Shown: piece after piece, positions 19,688-60,177 of the stretch
Layout of the letters: every line of letters starts with the position of its first letter
Numbering within the stretch: the first letter of the stretch is position 1
The notes under the pieces: generated by a model
What the model was told of the DNA's origin: nothing
Seen by the model: the letters and a program-made list of their open reading frames with translations, nothing else
Database searches by the model: none
Source of the DNA: Sneathiella sp.
GTDB taxonomy: Bacteria > Pseudomonadota > Alphaproteobacteria > Sneathiellales > Sneathiellaceae
Direction: 5' to 3'
Length of the DNA: 64,000 bases
Assembly (NCBI RefSeq): GCF_029233945.1
Contig: NZ_JARGOQ010000006.1
Span: 1 to 64,000 of the forward strand
Made by a program: the position numbers and the translations under genes

Positions 19688-19730
19688 TAAAGTCTCCCTC
19701 ATCTTTGGATAAGTAACGTTTTAATCATTG

Positions 19731-19757
19731 TTAGCACTCTGTCCTAACGAGTGCTAA
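19731..19757 (-). promoter_or_regulatory. CIRCE operator for HrcA
   Basis: TTAGCACTC (19731-19739), nine bases, GAGTGCTAA (19749-19757): an exact match to the CIRCE consensus. HrcA binds it and represses groESL until heat stress. It lies just downstream of the -10 box, where it would block polymerase. Confidence 0.97.
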
Positions 19758-19770
19758 CAAATTCGTTTTG

Positions 19771-54865: not shown

Positions 54866-56560
54866 TTAATTTGCCCCTTCAAGCAACCGACGGGCAATGA
54901 CCTGCGCCTGAATTTCACCTGCACCCTCGAATATATTAAGAATACGCGCATCGCACAGCACCCGGCTGATCGGGTATTCAAGGGCGAAACCATTGCCGCC
55001 ATGGATTTGAAGGGCGTTGTCCGCCGTGCTCCAGGCAACGCGGGCACCGAGAAGCTTGGCCATGCCTGCCTCCAGGTCACAGCGGCGACCTTCGTCCTTC
55101 GCGCGGGCGGACGCATAGGTGAGCTGACGCGCCATCATGATTTCCACAGCCATCCAGGCAAGCTTGCCAGCAACACGCGGAAACTTGATGATCGGGCGGG
55201 CAAACTGAACACGATCCAGCGCATAGCGCAGGCCGAGTTCCATGGCATTCTGCGCCACACCGAGCGCGCGGGCCGCCGTCTGGATGCGGGCGCTTTCGAA
55301 CGTCTGCATCAACTGCTTGAAGCCGTTGCCTTCTTCTTCACCAAGAAGATTTTCCGCCTTGATTTCGAAGTTATCAAAGCCAAGCTCATATTCCTTCATC
55401 CCGCGATAACCGAGAACCTCGATCTCGCCGCCGGTCATACCTTCCGCCGGGAAATCCTCCTCTTCGGTCATATGCGGCTTTTCCGCGAGGAACATGGAAA
55501 GGCCTTTATAGCCCGGCTCCTCCGGATTGGTACGCACCAGCATCGTCATGACATCGGCGCGCGCCGCATGGGTAATCCATGTCTTGTTGCCCGTCACCTT
55601 ATAAACATCACCGTCCTTCACCGCGCGGGTTTTAAGTGATGCAAGGTCGGAACCGGTGTTGGGTTCCGTGAAAACCGCCGTCGGCAGTATCTCACCCGTC
55701 GCAATCGACGACAGCCATTTATCCTTCTGCGCCTCCGTGCCGCCGGTCAGGATCAACTCCGCCGCAATTTCGGAACGCGTGCCGAGCGAGCCCACCCCGA
55801 TATACCCACGGGAGAGTTCCTCTGATACGACACACATGGACATCTTGCCGAGGCCGAGACCGTCATATTTCTCCGGCACCGTCAGGCCGAAAACACCGAG
55901 TTCCGACATTTTGTTCACAACCGGCATTGGGATCAATTCATCCTTCAGATGCCACTCGTGAGCGTAGGGCATGACCTCTTCGTTTGCGAAGCGGCGAAAC
56001 TGGTCACGAATCATCGAGAAGGTTTCATCCAGTCCCGAATCACCGAAATGGCCGGTGTCCATTCCCTCGGCAACCAGTTCAGCAATTCTTTCTTTAACCG
56101 CCGCGCTATAGCCCGACTCAATCAGGGTCACGACATCTGGCGTCTTGAATTTCGCGATCGCAGCATCATCCAGCCCGAGGTCCTGCGGGCGAATAATCTC
56201 TCCGAGGGACATGGGAATACCGCCGGTGATCTGGCTCAGATACTCGCCGAAGCCCGCCTGCAGGGTGAGTTGTTCCAACTCACCATATTTACCTTCGGCG
56301 GTGAGATGACGTGACCAGTTCAGGGTTTCGCGCAGAGCCTCCACATAGGTCGCAAGCCAGGCAAGGCCATGAGTCGCATACTGGTTAGCCTCAACCAGCT
56401 CCGCGCTGATCCGGCCATTGCTGCCCCGGGTCATATCCGCGACAGCCATGATCGCCTGCTGCTTGAATGATTCGGCTGCGCCAAGCGCAGATTCGCACAG
56501 ACCATCCAGCCCGTCCAACAGAAGTGTGTCGGGCGTTTCGGTCATTTCAGACATTGTCAT
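54866..56560 (-). CDS. mcd: (2S)-methylsuccinyl-CoA dehydrogenase
   Basis: 564 residues, longer than ordinary acyl-CoA dehydrogenases (about 380) because of an N-terminal extra domain of roughly 160 residues, which is characteristic of Mcd. The core has the FAD region AVFTEPNTGSDLASLKTRA and the C-terminal QIHGGNGFALEYPISRVLCDARILNIFEGAGEIQ. In the ethylmalonyl-CoA pathway it makes mesaconyl-C1-CoA and passes electrons to EtfAB. It is 31 bp after ccr, which supports this assignment over a general dehydrogenase. Confidence 0.9.
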   Translation of the reverse strand: MTMSEMTETPDTLLLDGLDGLCESALGAAESFKQQAIMAVADMTRGSNGRISAELVEANQYATHGLAWLATYVEALRETLNWSRHLTAEGKYGELEQLTLQAGFGEYLSQITGGIPMSLGEIIRPQDLGLDDAAIAKFKTPDVVTLIESGYSAAVKERIAELVAEGMDTGHFGDSGLDETFSMIRDQFRRFANEEVMPYAHEWHLKDELIPMPVVNKMSELGVFGLTVPEKYDGLGLGKMSMCVVSEELSRGYIGVGSLGTRSEIAAELILTGGTEAQKDKWLSSIATGEILPTAVFTEPNTGSDLASLKTRAVKDGDVYKVTGNKTWITHAARADVMTMLVRTNPEEPGYKGLSMFLAEKPHMTEEEDFPAEGMTGGEIEVLGYRGMKEYELGFDNFEIKAENLLGEEEGNGFKQLMQTFESARIQTAARALGVAQNAMELGLRYALDRVQFARPIIKFPRVAGKLAWMAVEIMMARQLTYASARAKDEGRRCDLEAGMAKLLGARVAWSTADNALQIHGGNGFALEYPISRVLCDARILNIFEGAGEIQAQVIARRLLEGAN

Positions 56561-56591
56561 TATTATTTTTCCTTTTGATTACGGCTTTCGC

Positions 56592-57896
56592 TTACTCGTT
56601 GCCGGCTTCAATCGCATCCTCGATCGTTCTCAGGCCTGGATATTTCGACGATACCAATACGGCCATATTGCCGGGTTTATGCTCATTATTCATCATTTTT
56701 GTATGAGCGCGCGGAATATCATCCCAGGAGAAAACCTCTGACATGCAAGGATCGATACGACGCTCCACAACCAAATTATTTGCCTGAGACGCCTGCTTCA
56801 GGTTCGCAAAATGGCTGCCCTGAATACGTTTCTGACGCATCCAGACAAAACGTGCATCCATGGTCAGGTTAAAGCCCGTCGTGCCGGCGCAGAAAACGAC
56901 CATACCGCCACGCTTGACCACATTACAGGAAACCGGGAAGGTCTGTTCGCCGGGATGCTCAAATACGAAATCAACGTCATTGCCTTTGCCGGTAATTTCC
57001 CAGATGGCCTTACCGAATTCACGGGTTTTCTTCATATAGTCACCAAACCCTTCGCCGTTCACTGTCGGCAGCTGGCCCCAGCAATCAAAATCCTTACGAT
57101 TGAGAACGCCTTTCGCGCCGAGCGACATCACGAATTCCCGTTTGCTTTCATCGGAAATAACGCCAATGGCATTGGCGCCCGCCGCCGCGCAAATCTGGAT
57201 GGCCATGGACCCAAGACCGCCCGAAGCACCCCAGATCAGGACGTTATGGCCAGGGCGCAGGATATGCGGCCGATGACCGAACAACATACGATATGCGGTT
57301 GCGAGGGTCAGCGTATAACAGGCGCTTTCTTCCCAAGTCAGATGTTTGGGACGTGGCATCAACTGACGGTCCTGCACACGGGCAAACTGGGCGAAAGAAC
57401 CATCCGGCGTTTCATAACCCCAGATGCGCTGGCTCGGCGAGAACATGGGATCTCCGCCGTTACATTCCTCATCGTCACCATCGTCCTGATTACAATGAAC
57501 GACGATTTCATCACCGATCTTGAAGCGCTTCACCTTGTTGCCCACGGCATAGACAACGCCGGACGCATCCGACCCCGCGATATGGTAGGGCTGCTTATGG
57601 TAATCGAATGGGGAAATCGGTTCGCCAAGAGCTGCCCAGACGCCATTATAATTGACGCCCGCCGCCATCACGAGGATCAGCACATCATGGCTGTCCAGCT
57701 CCGGCGTATCGACGACTTCGACCTGCATGGCTTTTTCAGGTTCCCCGTGGCGTTCGCGACGGATCGCCCAGGCATACATTTTGGAGGGGACATGGCCGAG
57801 CGGCGGAATTTCTCCTACTTCATAGAGATCCTTAATCTCGCCAGTCGGCATTTCATTTTCCGCTTCAGATTTCGCAGAAGCTTGCGTATTTGACAT
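56592..57896 (-). CDS. ccr: Crotonyl-CoA carboxylase/reductase
   Basis: 434 residues from the second ATG, which has GAGGG eight bases upstream (the first ATG sits directly on that site). NADPH-dependent MDR enzyme: GSDASGVVYAVGNKV, NQDDGDDEECNGGDPMFSPSQRIWGYETPDGSFAQF and the cofactor loop VLIWGASGGLGSMAIQI. These are hallmark Ccr segments. It reductively carboxylates crotonyl-CoA to ethylmalonyl-CoA, the key step for two-carbon assimilation without a glyoxylate cycle. Coupled with mcd and divergent from ecm. Confidence 0.97.
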   Translation of the reverse strand: MSNTQASAKSEAENEMPTGEIKDLYEVGEIPPLGHVPSKMYAWAIRRERHGEPEKAMQVEVVDTPELDSHDVLILVMAAGVNYNGVWAALGEPISPFDYHKQPYHIAGSDASGVVYAVGNKVKRFKIGDEIVVHCNQDDGDDEECNGGDPMFSPSQRIWGYETPDGSFAQFARVQDRQLMPRPKHLTWEESACYTLTLATAYRMLFGHRPHILRPGHNVLIWGASGGLGSMAIQICAAAGANAIGVISDESKREFVMSLGAKGVLNRKDFDCWGQLPTVNGEGFGDYMKKTREFGKAIWEITGKGNDVDFVFEHPGEQTFPVSCNVVKRGGMVVFCAGTTGFNLTMDARFVWMRQKRIQGSHFANLKQASQANNLVVERRIDPCMSEVFSWDDIPRAHTKMMNNEHKPGNMAVLVSSKYPGLRTIEDAIEAGNE

Positions 57897-58096
57897 CAAA
57901 ATCATCCCTCATATTTTGTGTGTAGTCTCATTTATAGGGCGGTAGTCTTTACAAATCACAAATTCCTTTTCCCGCCTTGATATATCGCATTGCATCAAAA
58001 AACGAAATGGGGACCTTTACATTAGCCCGGTTTATGAGAAGATTACTGACCTTTGTTCAGATAACAAGTTTTTTTTGCGCTGCAACACAAAGTTAT

Positions 58097-58130
58097 GTTA
58101 TTACGTGCGACATCAAAAACACGTAATAAC
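58097..58130. promoter_or_regulatory. Perfect inverted repeat between ccr and ecm, candidate operator
   Basis: GTTATTACGTG (58097-58107), 12 bases, CACGTAATAAC (58120-58130): a perfect 11-bp inverted repeat in the 268-bp divergent region, ending 34 bp before the ecm ATG. No T tract follows, so it is not a terminator. It fits a dimeric transcription factor site, or a hairpin in the ecm leader. The regulator is unknown. Confidence 0.45.
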
Positions 58131-58164
58131 CGAACTTAAACGACTATGAATACGAAAGATAATT

Positions 58165-60177
58165 ATGGCACAAGACAAGACGGACGCCGTAAAATCCGGC
58201 ACCCCAAAGAAAGATCGCCCCTGGTTGTTCCGCACCTATTCCGGTCATTCGTCCGCCAAAGCCTCAAATGAGCTTTATAAAACAAACCTTGCGCGTGGCC
58301 AGACCGGCTTGTCCGTTGCCTTCGATCTGCCGACCCAAACCGGCTATGATTCGGATCATGTCCTCGCCCGGGGCGAAGTGGGCAAGGTCGGTGTACCAAT
58401 ATGCCATATCGGGGATATGCGCGCCCTGTTTGATGATATCCCGCTCGAGAAAATGAACACCTCGATGACCATCAACGCGACATCCGCCTGGTTGTTGGCA
58501 CTTTATGTTGCGGTCGCCGAGGAACAAGGCGCCGATGTGGCCACCCTTCAGGGCACCGTCCAGAATGATATCATTAAAGAGTATCTCTCACGCGGAACCT
58601 ATATCTTTCCACCAAAACCAAGCATGAAGCTAATAACCGACGTGGTAAGCTACACCTACCAGCATATGCCGAAATGGAACCCGACCAACGTCTGCTCCTA
58701 CCATCTGCAGGAAGCGGGAGCGACACCGGTGCAGGAACTGTCCTTTGCGTTGGCAACAGCCATTGCGGTTCTGGATGCGGTAAAAGAAGGCGGGCAGATC
58801 AGCGCCGAGGATTTCCCCTCTGCGACGGGGCGGATAAGTTTCTTCGTCAATGCTGGCATCCGTTTTATCACCGAAATGTGCAAAATGCGCGCTTTTGTCG
58901 ATCTTTGGGATGAGATCCTGCGGGATCGCTACGGTGTCGAGGATGAGAAATTTCGACGCTTTCGCTATGGCGTGCAGGTAAACTCCCTCGGCCTGACGGA
59001 ACAACAGCCGGAAAACAACGTCTATCGCATTCTCCTTGAAATGCTGGCCGTCGTGCTTTCCAAGAAAGCGCGCGCACGGGCCGTTCAGCTCCCCGCCTGG
59101 AACGAGGCATTAGGGCTGCCCCGGCCATGGGATCAGCAGTGGTCGCTTCGCCTGCAGCAGATTGTCGCTTTTGAGACCGACCTGCTGGAATTTGGCGATA
59201 TCTTCGAAGGTTCGACCGAAATTGACCGCAAGGTTGAGGAGTTAAAAGCCGCTGCACGCGAGGAGCTGAAACTCATTGAGGAAATGGGCGGTGCCGTCAC
59301 TGCCGTCGATACCGGCTATTTAAAAGAAAGCCTGGTGAATTCCAATACAAACCGCGTTCAGTCGGTCATCGCTGGCGAATTGCCCGTCATCGGCGTGAAT
59401 AAATTTACCGAATCCGCCCCTTCCCCGCTCACGCAGGAGGCCGACGGCGGGATCATGACCGTCGATCCCGCAGCGGAAGCCGAACAGATCGAGCTGTTGC
59501 AGGCATGGCGCGAGAGCCGGGATGACGCCGCCGTGAAGAAGGCACTGGACGCCTTGTCAAAGGCAGCAAATGACGGGCAGAATATCATGCCGGCCTCCAT
59601 CGCCGCCGCCAAGGCAGGGGTGACGACGGGTGAATGGTCGGAAGCACTCCGTCACGTATATGGGGAATACCGCGCGCCAACCGGCGTGAGCTCGGCTGTT
59701 TCCAACGCAGAGAACGACATTTTGGAACCCGCCCGAGAGAAGGTTGCGGCGGCGGCGGCGGCACTTGGACGGCCGCTCAAGGTTCTGGTCGGCAAACCGG
59801 GACTTGATGGCCATTCCAATGGTGCGGAGCAAATCGCCGTGTCCGCCCGCGACAGCGGCATGCAGGTGGTTTATGAAGGGATCCGCCTGACACCGGAGCA
59901 GATTGTCACCGCGGCCAAGGCCGGGACCGTCGATCTTGTCGGCCTGTCCATTCTTTCCGGCTCCCACATTCCGCTTGCGACAGAAGTCTGTGAAAGATTG
60001 AAAGCCGCAGGCCTTGGCGATGTTCCTGTTGTGGTCGGGGGCATCATCCCGCTCGAGGATGCGGAGACACTCAGGAAAGCCGGCGTCAGTCAGATCTATA
60101 CACCGAAGGATTTCGACATGGCGGGCATCGTCATCGACATGGTCGATATGATCATGAAATATGAGAATGTCGCCTGA
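58165..60177 (+). CDS. ecm: (2R)-ethylmalonyl-CoA mutase (MeaA)
   Basis: 670 residues. The N-terminal substrate barrel begins KDRPWLFRTYSGHSSAKASNELYKTNLARGQTGLSVAFDLPTQTGYDSD and contains the MeaA-type LQGTVQNDIIKEYLSRGTYIFPPKPSM. The C-terminal cobalamin domain carries the DxHxxG motif in GKPGLDGHSNGAEQIAVSARD, where His coordinates cobalt. It rearranges ethylmalonyl-CoA to methylsuccinyl-CoA using adenosylcobalamin. Divergent from ccr-mcd, so one intergenic region may control three successive pathway steps. Confidence 0.97.
   Translation: MAQDKTDAVKSGTPKKDRPWLFRTYSGHSSAKASNELYKTNLARGQTGLSVAFDLPTQTGYDSDHVLARGEVGKVGVPICHIGDMRALFDDIPLEKMNTSMTINATSAWLLALYVAVAEEQGADVATLQGTVQNDIIKEYLSRGTYIFPPKPSMKLITDVVSYTYQHMPKWNPTNVCSYHLQEAGATPVQELSFALATAIAVLDAVKEGGQISAEDFPSATGRISFFVNAGIRFITEMCKMRAFVDLWDEILRDRYGVEDEKFRRFRYGVQVNSLGLTEQQPENNVYRILLEMLAVVLSKKARARAVQLPAWNEALGLPRPWDQQWSLRLQQIVAFETDLLEFGDIFEGSTEIDRKVEELKAAAREELKLIEEMGGAVTAVDTGYLKESLVNSNTNRVQSVIAGELPVIGVNKFTESAPSPLTQEADGGIMTVDPAAEAEQIELLQAWRESRDDAAVKKALDALSKAANDGQNIMPASIAAAKAGVTTGEWSEALRHVYGEYRAPTGVSSAVSNAENDILEPAREKVAAAAAALGRPLKVLVGKPGLDGHSNGAEQIAVSARDSGMQVVYEGIRLTPEQIVTAAKAGTVDLVGLSILSGSHIPLATEVCERLKAAGLGDVPVVVGGIIPLEDAETLRKAGVSQIYTPKDFDMAGIVIDMVDMIMKYENVA

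Follow-up and report, generated by a model that had tools for sequence, protein, structure and literature searches.

What controls the divergent ccr-mcd and ecm genes of Sneathiella, and is the perfect inverted repeat that lies between them the controlling site? The ethylmalonyl-CoA pathway and polyhydroxybutyrate (PHB) synthesis branch from the same C4 intermediates. A sequence-only reading of the window (the whole 64,000-nucleotide stretch of DNA analysed here) had proposed that the repeat controls this pathway divergon. Our comparisons indicate that the deeply conserved sites of the region are two PhaR-type boxes, and we think it probable that the ccr-mcd/ecm divergon is a PhaR-regulated region with two candidate operators. 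The perfect repeat is for the most part confined to a few marine bacteria that are related to one another.

The view that this is a divergent regulatory region of pathway genes is supported, for ccr by a family cut-off and for ecm and mcd by family and neighbourhood. Neither ecm nor mcd passed an equivalog cut-off, and their names come from protein families and from the position beside ccr; the relative of ecm in Ruegeria TM1040 is annotated 'protein meaA'. We took the ccr start as 57896 and not 57905: GAGGG lies 9 nt before the ATG at 57896, and the ATG at 57905 is missing in S. sedimenti. The features, in window coordinates, are:

54866-56560, minus strand: mcd, probable methylsuccinyl-CoA dehydrogenase (acyl-CoA dehydrogenase domains; downstream of ccr)
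56592-57896, minus strand: ccr, crotonyl-CoA carboxylase/reductase (TIGR01751, 625.7 bits; NCBIfam curated cut-off 378.55)
57980-58000, no strand assigned: PhaR-type box 1 (ccr-proximal), ATATATCGCATTGCATCAAAA, core 57986-57994; 21/21 to the S. meliloti PhaR consensus
58070-58090, no strand assigned: PhaR-type box 2 (ecm-proximal), TTTTTTTGCGCTGCAACACAA, core 58076-58084; 20/21 to the S. meliloti consensus
58094-58104, plus strand: TATGTTATTAC, the -10-like region of the presumed ecm promoter; its columns hardly vary among 20 genomes
58097-58107, plus strand: left arm of the inverted repeat, GTTATTACGTG, overlapping the -10-like region; G1, T3, A4, T5, T6 and C8 invariant in 20/20
58108-58119, plus strand: 12-nt spacer of the inverted repeat, variable among relatives
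58120-58130, plus strand: right arm, CACGTAATAAC; G27, A29, A30 and A32 invariant in 20/20; closer to AMGAAAYAAS in most relatives
58152-58159, plus strand: ACGAAAGA, the presumed ribosome-binding region of ecm; CGAAAGA is the same in 20/20 and the first A in 19/20
58165-60177, plus strand: ecm (meaA-like), probable ethylmalonyl-CoA mutase (MM_CoA_mutase and B12-binding domains)

The inverted repeat itself is real. As described in the sequence-only reading, GTTATTACGTG-N12-CACGTAATAAC is exact over 11 bp; it spans 58097-58130, 34 bp from the ecm start codon at 58165, and no other place in the window matches it with 3 or fewer mismatches. The interval first given for it, 57906-58164, does contain it and is the ccr-ecm intergenic region, the repeat proper being 58097-58130. 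Its arms extend imperfectly to 18 nt (89% complementary; 58090-58107 and 58120-58137). Among 3000 first-order shuffles of the 268-bp intergenic region, 9 gave a perfect repeat of at least 11 bp (loop 3-20), yet the window holds six (this one and five more, versus 0 or 1 per shuffled window, n = 10); the repeat is therefore unusual at its own place and not unique in kind. The absence of a terminator tail was also correctly noted: no run of at least four T follows the repeat on either strand. We rejected an intrinsic terminator, since no T-run follows either end; a terminator scan gave two hits, both elsewhere and on the minus strand (58028-58011 and 58198-58181), and it could not have taken the 12-nt loop because its loop limit is 8. 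An Rfam family was likewise rejected, with 0 matches at the gathering score in 56000-60000.

Other suggestions about the repeat fared less well. Recurrence of the motif at other pathway genes is not borne out by the 3.6-Mb assembly, which holds no second copy at up to 3 mismatches; a single arm occurs once more (contig C86). A degenerate dyad built from 20 Sneathiella leaders found 1 site in the genome, the ccr-ecm repeat itself, versus 2 for the reversed control pattern. The sequence CATCAAAAA is indeed present twice, at 57993-58001 and in the loop at 58111-58119, 118 bp apart, and a third, similar stretch at 57892-57904 turns out to be the start codon of ccr with its spacer, on the opposite strand. 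We set it aside as a shared element, because the first copy falls partly within PhaR box 1, the one in the loop differs from relative to relative, and the third stretch belongs to the start of ccr.

The strongest conserved block upstream of the repeat is CAAGTTTTTTTTGCRCTGCARCACAAAG, which fits the published 21-bp consensus of S. meliloti PhaR/AniA, WNWDDNYGCRNYGCRNHHWNW (core YGCRNYGCR plus AT-rich arms; PMC12542648), the motif that we used for scoring. The two boxes that it finds in the region, neither of them named in the sequence-only reading, are 90 bp apart. Relative to the ATG of ecm, the core of box 2 lies at -89 in all 20 Sneathiella genomes and that of box 1 at -178 to -180 in 18 of 20 (it is missing in G015 and G023). 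Ten sites in the window score at least 20, two of them in the ccr-ecm region; for the reversed motif there are nine such sites, all elsewhere. The PhaR box written for Bradyrhizobium diazoefficiens in the main text of PMC10888616, NGCN3GC[GA]N3, fits box 2 as written and box 1 on the ccr strand.

Boxes of this type are also found upstream of ecm well beyond Sneathiella. Of 533 ecm relatives found in the species collection, the closest named ones being from Sneathiella, the best 80 were kept, and 66 of these loci were counted after removal of 13 Sneathiella loci that repeat counted genomes and of L099, whose upstream sequence is too short; nine class-level loci (L022-L030), partly in the wrong orientation, were also left uncounted. 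A box was accepted if it had an intact core, scored at least 18/21 and lay within 260 bp upstream of the match. Among these 66 (from the best 80 of 533), 64 upstream regions have a box at a score of at least 18, 61 at 19 or above and 46 at 20 or above, compared with 4, 2 and 1 for the reversed motif at the same thresholds; internal stretches of ecm gave a box in 0 of 66. In 75 other promoters taken from 47 of those loci, 8, 4 and 2 have a box at the three thresholds and 7, 2 and 0 the reversed motif, so that the box counts there amount to their own background. The difference between 64/66 and 8/75 has a Fisher p of 2e-28, which ignores relatedness, and the 66 loci are related, some of them near-identical (L049, L050, L077). 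In 50 of the 66, ccr was found divergent to ecm, within about 410 bp in 44 and further off in six. An earlier regular expression, TTGCRNYGCA, drawn by eye from the genus, matched 25 of the 66 upstream regions versus 0.8 expected from shuffles, and was replaced by the published consensus because the latter found more regions.

Eight of the 21 named plasmid or chromid records found were examined. In Paracoccus denitrificans, ecm (18/21) and ccr (19/21) lie more than 1 kb apart and each have a box of their own, and P. pantotrophus and P. versutus have one box each at ecm (19/21). Boxes occur at both genes in Tritonibacter and in Ruegeria TM1040, where the reversed motif scores 19 at ecm as well. 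Methylobacterium aquaticum has one box between ecm and ccr, and in the scanned record of Methylobacterium bullatum the box is absent at both genes. The box score also reaches 18 at the ecm relative of one Streptomyces; to our knowledge, Streptomyces would not be expected to have a PhaR system.

The genome to which the window belongs also encodes a protein that could bind its boxes. Its phaR (PF07879, 108.5 bits, cut-off 25; also PF05233) adjoins phaC-like, thiolase (phaA-like) and short-chain reductase (phaB-like) genes, and one box (20/21) lies between phaR and the phaC-like gene. We located a phasin gene in 22 of 24 Sneathiella genomes, and boxes precede it in all 22, two or more of them in 21. 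The S. meliloti PhaR/AniA regulon, as presented in the main text of PMC12542648, has the same 21-bp palindromic consensus as the Sneathiella boxes and, like the Sneathiella phasin gene, two boxes at each phasin promoter; at phaP1 of B. diazoefficiens, two PhaR boxes are placed around -35 and -10 (PMC10888616).

A further box (21/21) precedes an operon of mcl-like, mch-like and sdh genes (L240:179-5515; G000 C39). The mcl-like gene encodes an HpcH/HpaI-family lyase and the mch-like gene a mesaconyl-CoA-hydratase-like protein, both named from Pfam and gene order, and the succinate dehydrogenase subunits were assigned by family (C and A) or by gene order (D and B). The box is present at 20 of 20 Sneathiella loci versus 2 of 9 relatives outside the genus, and the reversed motif occurs in 5 of the 29 regions; L270, with 76 bp upstream, was dropped from this count. 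In vitro, S. meliloti PhaR bound the sdhC promoter, according to the main text of PMC12542648. The mcl-like/mch-like and succinate dehydrogenase genes might thus be tied to the same candidate PhaR regulon.

The PhaR consensus is short and degenerate, and a whole-genome listing of the regulon was only partly useful. Exact 21-mer matches number 40, compared with 22 of the reversed motif; of 38 exact matches that we examined, 25 fall within mechanically called open reading frames, so that half or more of the exact sites in the genome may be due to chance. Exact consensus sites also occur about 100 bp before lpxC and serC (L217:2481-2501 and L236:2466-2486; G000 C77 and C51), and these, too, may be chance matches.

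We postulate that when there is little PHB, PhaR would occupy both boxes, one upstream of each divergent gene, and that the bound protein would lower transcription on the ccr-mcd side and on the ecm side. When acetyl-CoA overflows into PHB, the granules would sequester PhaR, and the pathway would be released together with the phasin gene and the mcl-like–mch-like–sdh operon. In other bacteria, PhaR keeps phasin genes repressed and leaves the DNA when PHB draws it away, as described in the main text of PMC12542648. The sign of its action on ccr and ecm is one that we only infer, because PhaR has also been associated with activation (main text of PMC10888616). The inverted repeat would be secondary, with the -10-like region of ecm in its left arm and a conserved motif of the leader in its right arm. 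That boxes of this type accompany the acetate-assimilation pathway in most Alphaproteobacteria surveyed suggests that carbon storage and carbon assimilation may share one switch. A broader proposition, which we consider evenly balanced, is that across the Alphaproteobacteria PhaR is an ancestral, general regulator of this pathway, with PHB granules acting as the inducer of acetyl-CoA assimilation by titrating it off the ccr and ecm operators.

Placement of the ecm promoter bears on how the repeat is to be understood. A -10 element could be TATGTT (58094-58099) or TATTAC (58099-58104), the latter 18 bp from TTGCGC at 58075-58080. The pairing of TTGCRC as -35 with TATTAC as -10, our first reading, may or may not hold. 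The genus form of the -10-like region under the left arm is TATGWTATTRC, and TATGATATTTC occupies the same place in some ecm leaders outside Sneathiella. Outside the genus, a TATGAT-like hexamer lies 12 bp after TTGCRN in 7 of 25 leaders, and spacings of 17 and 18 occur in 0 and 1 of 25, with no peak. A generic promoter scan called nothing at the ecm start. There is no length change from the -10-like region to the start codon in the 20 Sneathiella leaders, and ACGAAAGA is nearly invariant in them despite being a weak Shine-Dalgarno sequence.

The repeat could instead be the operator of a dedicated dimeric regulator, with half-site TNTTNC and arms about two helical turns apart, that covers both the -10 and the start site of ecm and so blocks transcription, PhaR acting in addition. 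We hold this to be possible, and we lean against it. Leaders of ecm were aligned from 20 of 24 Sneathiella genomes, including that of the window (G006, G008, G010 and G017, with no full ecm and leader, were left out), and the dyad proved to be conserved beyond one genome to some extent, four right-arm bases being invariant in all 20. Over the 20 genomes it has a mean complementarity of 7.9 of 11, the highest among 1400 arm placements; the mean is 6.27 for the 11 genomes that do not belong to the near-palindrome group, where a single one of the 1400 does better, the same dyad shifted inwards by one base. Of eight columns in the right arm, four are invariant versus 0 of 39 other leader columns between 8 and 54 (p 4e-4, which ignores relatedness, with the columns chosen post hoc), and these four pair with four invariant left-arm columns. 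Covariation across the dyad is modest. Of 500 shuffles, 8 came up to its score and 3 to the paired percentage; however, neither the number of pairs changed on both sides (four, a count reached in 59 of 500) nor that of further pair types (326 of 500) goes beyond shuffles. Conservation of the left arm can also be explained because the -10-like region overlaps it. Moreover, the 11 positions are all complementary in only 3 of 20 genomes (that of the window, S. sedimenti and G016), with 10 of 11 in 3 and 5-9 of 11 in 14, and the genome has no second site, near or degenerate. A palindrome that stands alone in its genome even as a degenerate pattern, and is perfect in so few Sneathiella, gives no support to the pathway control first proposed. 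Among the findings that the sequence-only reading had named as counting against it, a motif unique to the site is what we found, and a lack of conservation in close relatives applies only in part. We read the dyad as a weak, genus-wide element over the presumed transcription start, apparently symmetrised in one subclade, and not as a master operator of the pathway.

The remaining alternatives appear to us less likely. The strand from 58080 to 58180 folds at -18 kcal/mol (z -3.74), as might be expected if the leader RNA of ecm formed a hairpin that made the mRNA more stable or controlled access to the ribosome site. We consider such a hairpin quite unlikely: with a -10 in or before the left arm, transcription would start inside or after that arm, so the stem would not be transcribed whole; in 14 of the 20 genomes it is also reduced to 5-9 of its 11 pairs, and Rfam has no match to it. 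It seems very unlikely that the repeat serves a pathway regulator already known, CcrR or an ScfR protein (RamB, PccR), as its operator. CcrR is reportedly a TetR-family activator, to go by the title of the 2012 work of Hu and Lidstrom, and is said to act on one pathway gene in Methylobacterium extorquens. The Sneathiella genome does encode a protein of 538 aa (L271:1015-2631) that has a Peptidase_M78 domain and a start that looks by eye like a helix-turn-helix, possibly an ScfR-type regulator. However, RamB (ScfR) of P. denitrificans, which in the main text of PMC10370305 governs acetate assimilation in step with the ethylmalonyl-CoA pathway, has as its target the glyoxylate operon, with two near-identical boxes 18 bp apart, whereas the Sneathiella arms are inverted and 12 bp apart; this comparison is by description and not by motif letters. 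In addition, pathway reporters in Paracoccus are described as unchanged by deletion of two ScfR genes. Finally, the TGC-rich boxes might be sites of another regulator that shares the recognition sequence of PhaR, or core promoter elements only. Box 2 does overlap the presumed -35 region, and binding of PhaR to the boxes is predicted. This is nonetheless unlikely in our judgement: paired boxes precede the phasin gene in 21 of 22 genomes and a box lies before phaR in this genome, both of which are described as PhaR targets elsewhere, and box 1 and box 2 differ in their distance from any -10-like element.

Regulation of the divergon by PhaR would extend what has been described for this protein. 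PhaR and its box are already known; what appears to be new here is the presence of boxes at ethylmalonyl-CoA pathway genes. The main text of the S. meliloti paper (PMC12542648) has no mention of ethylmalonyl, methylmalonyl, crotonyl, mutase or malyl, in contrast to the boxes at ethylmalonyl-CoA genes in Sneathiella, and ethylmalonyl and methylmalonyl are absent from the main text of the B. diazoefficiens paper (PMC10888616). The RamB paper (PMC10370305), for its part, mentions neither PHB nor PhaR in its main text. A transcriptome paper on a phaR mutant of M. extorquens describes a broad effect, and its main text does not name ccr or ecm. Among the best-ranked results of our searches of open-access literature, we found no reports of PhaR acting on ccr or ecm, which is not proof, because most subscription papers and supplementary tables lie outside its scope.

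If this regulation is real, the storage polymer itself would set the capacity of the pathway whose intermediates it shares, and the PhaR boxes that precede ecm in 64 of 66 loci outside Sneathiella would offer one way in which storage and assimilation are balanced. No general regulator of the ethylmalonyl-CoA pathway is named in the literature examined, as far as the texts available to us go, and a 2019 study is described as leaving pathway regulation to future work. The idea is directly testable, since P. denitrificans strains with a ccr-mCherry reporter are reported to exist already. It also bears on the engineering of PHB or of pathway-derived acids, where mutation of phaR reportedly had an unexpected result.

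The census of inverted repeats in the window gave one further element of a different kind. At 19728-19760 lies TTGTTAGCACTC-N9-GAGTGCTAACAA, which we take to be a CIRCE element, the operator of HrcA.
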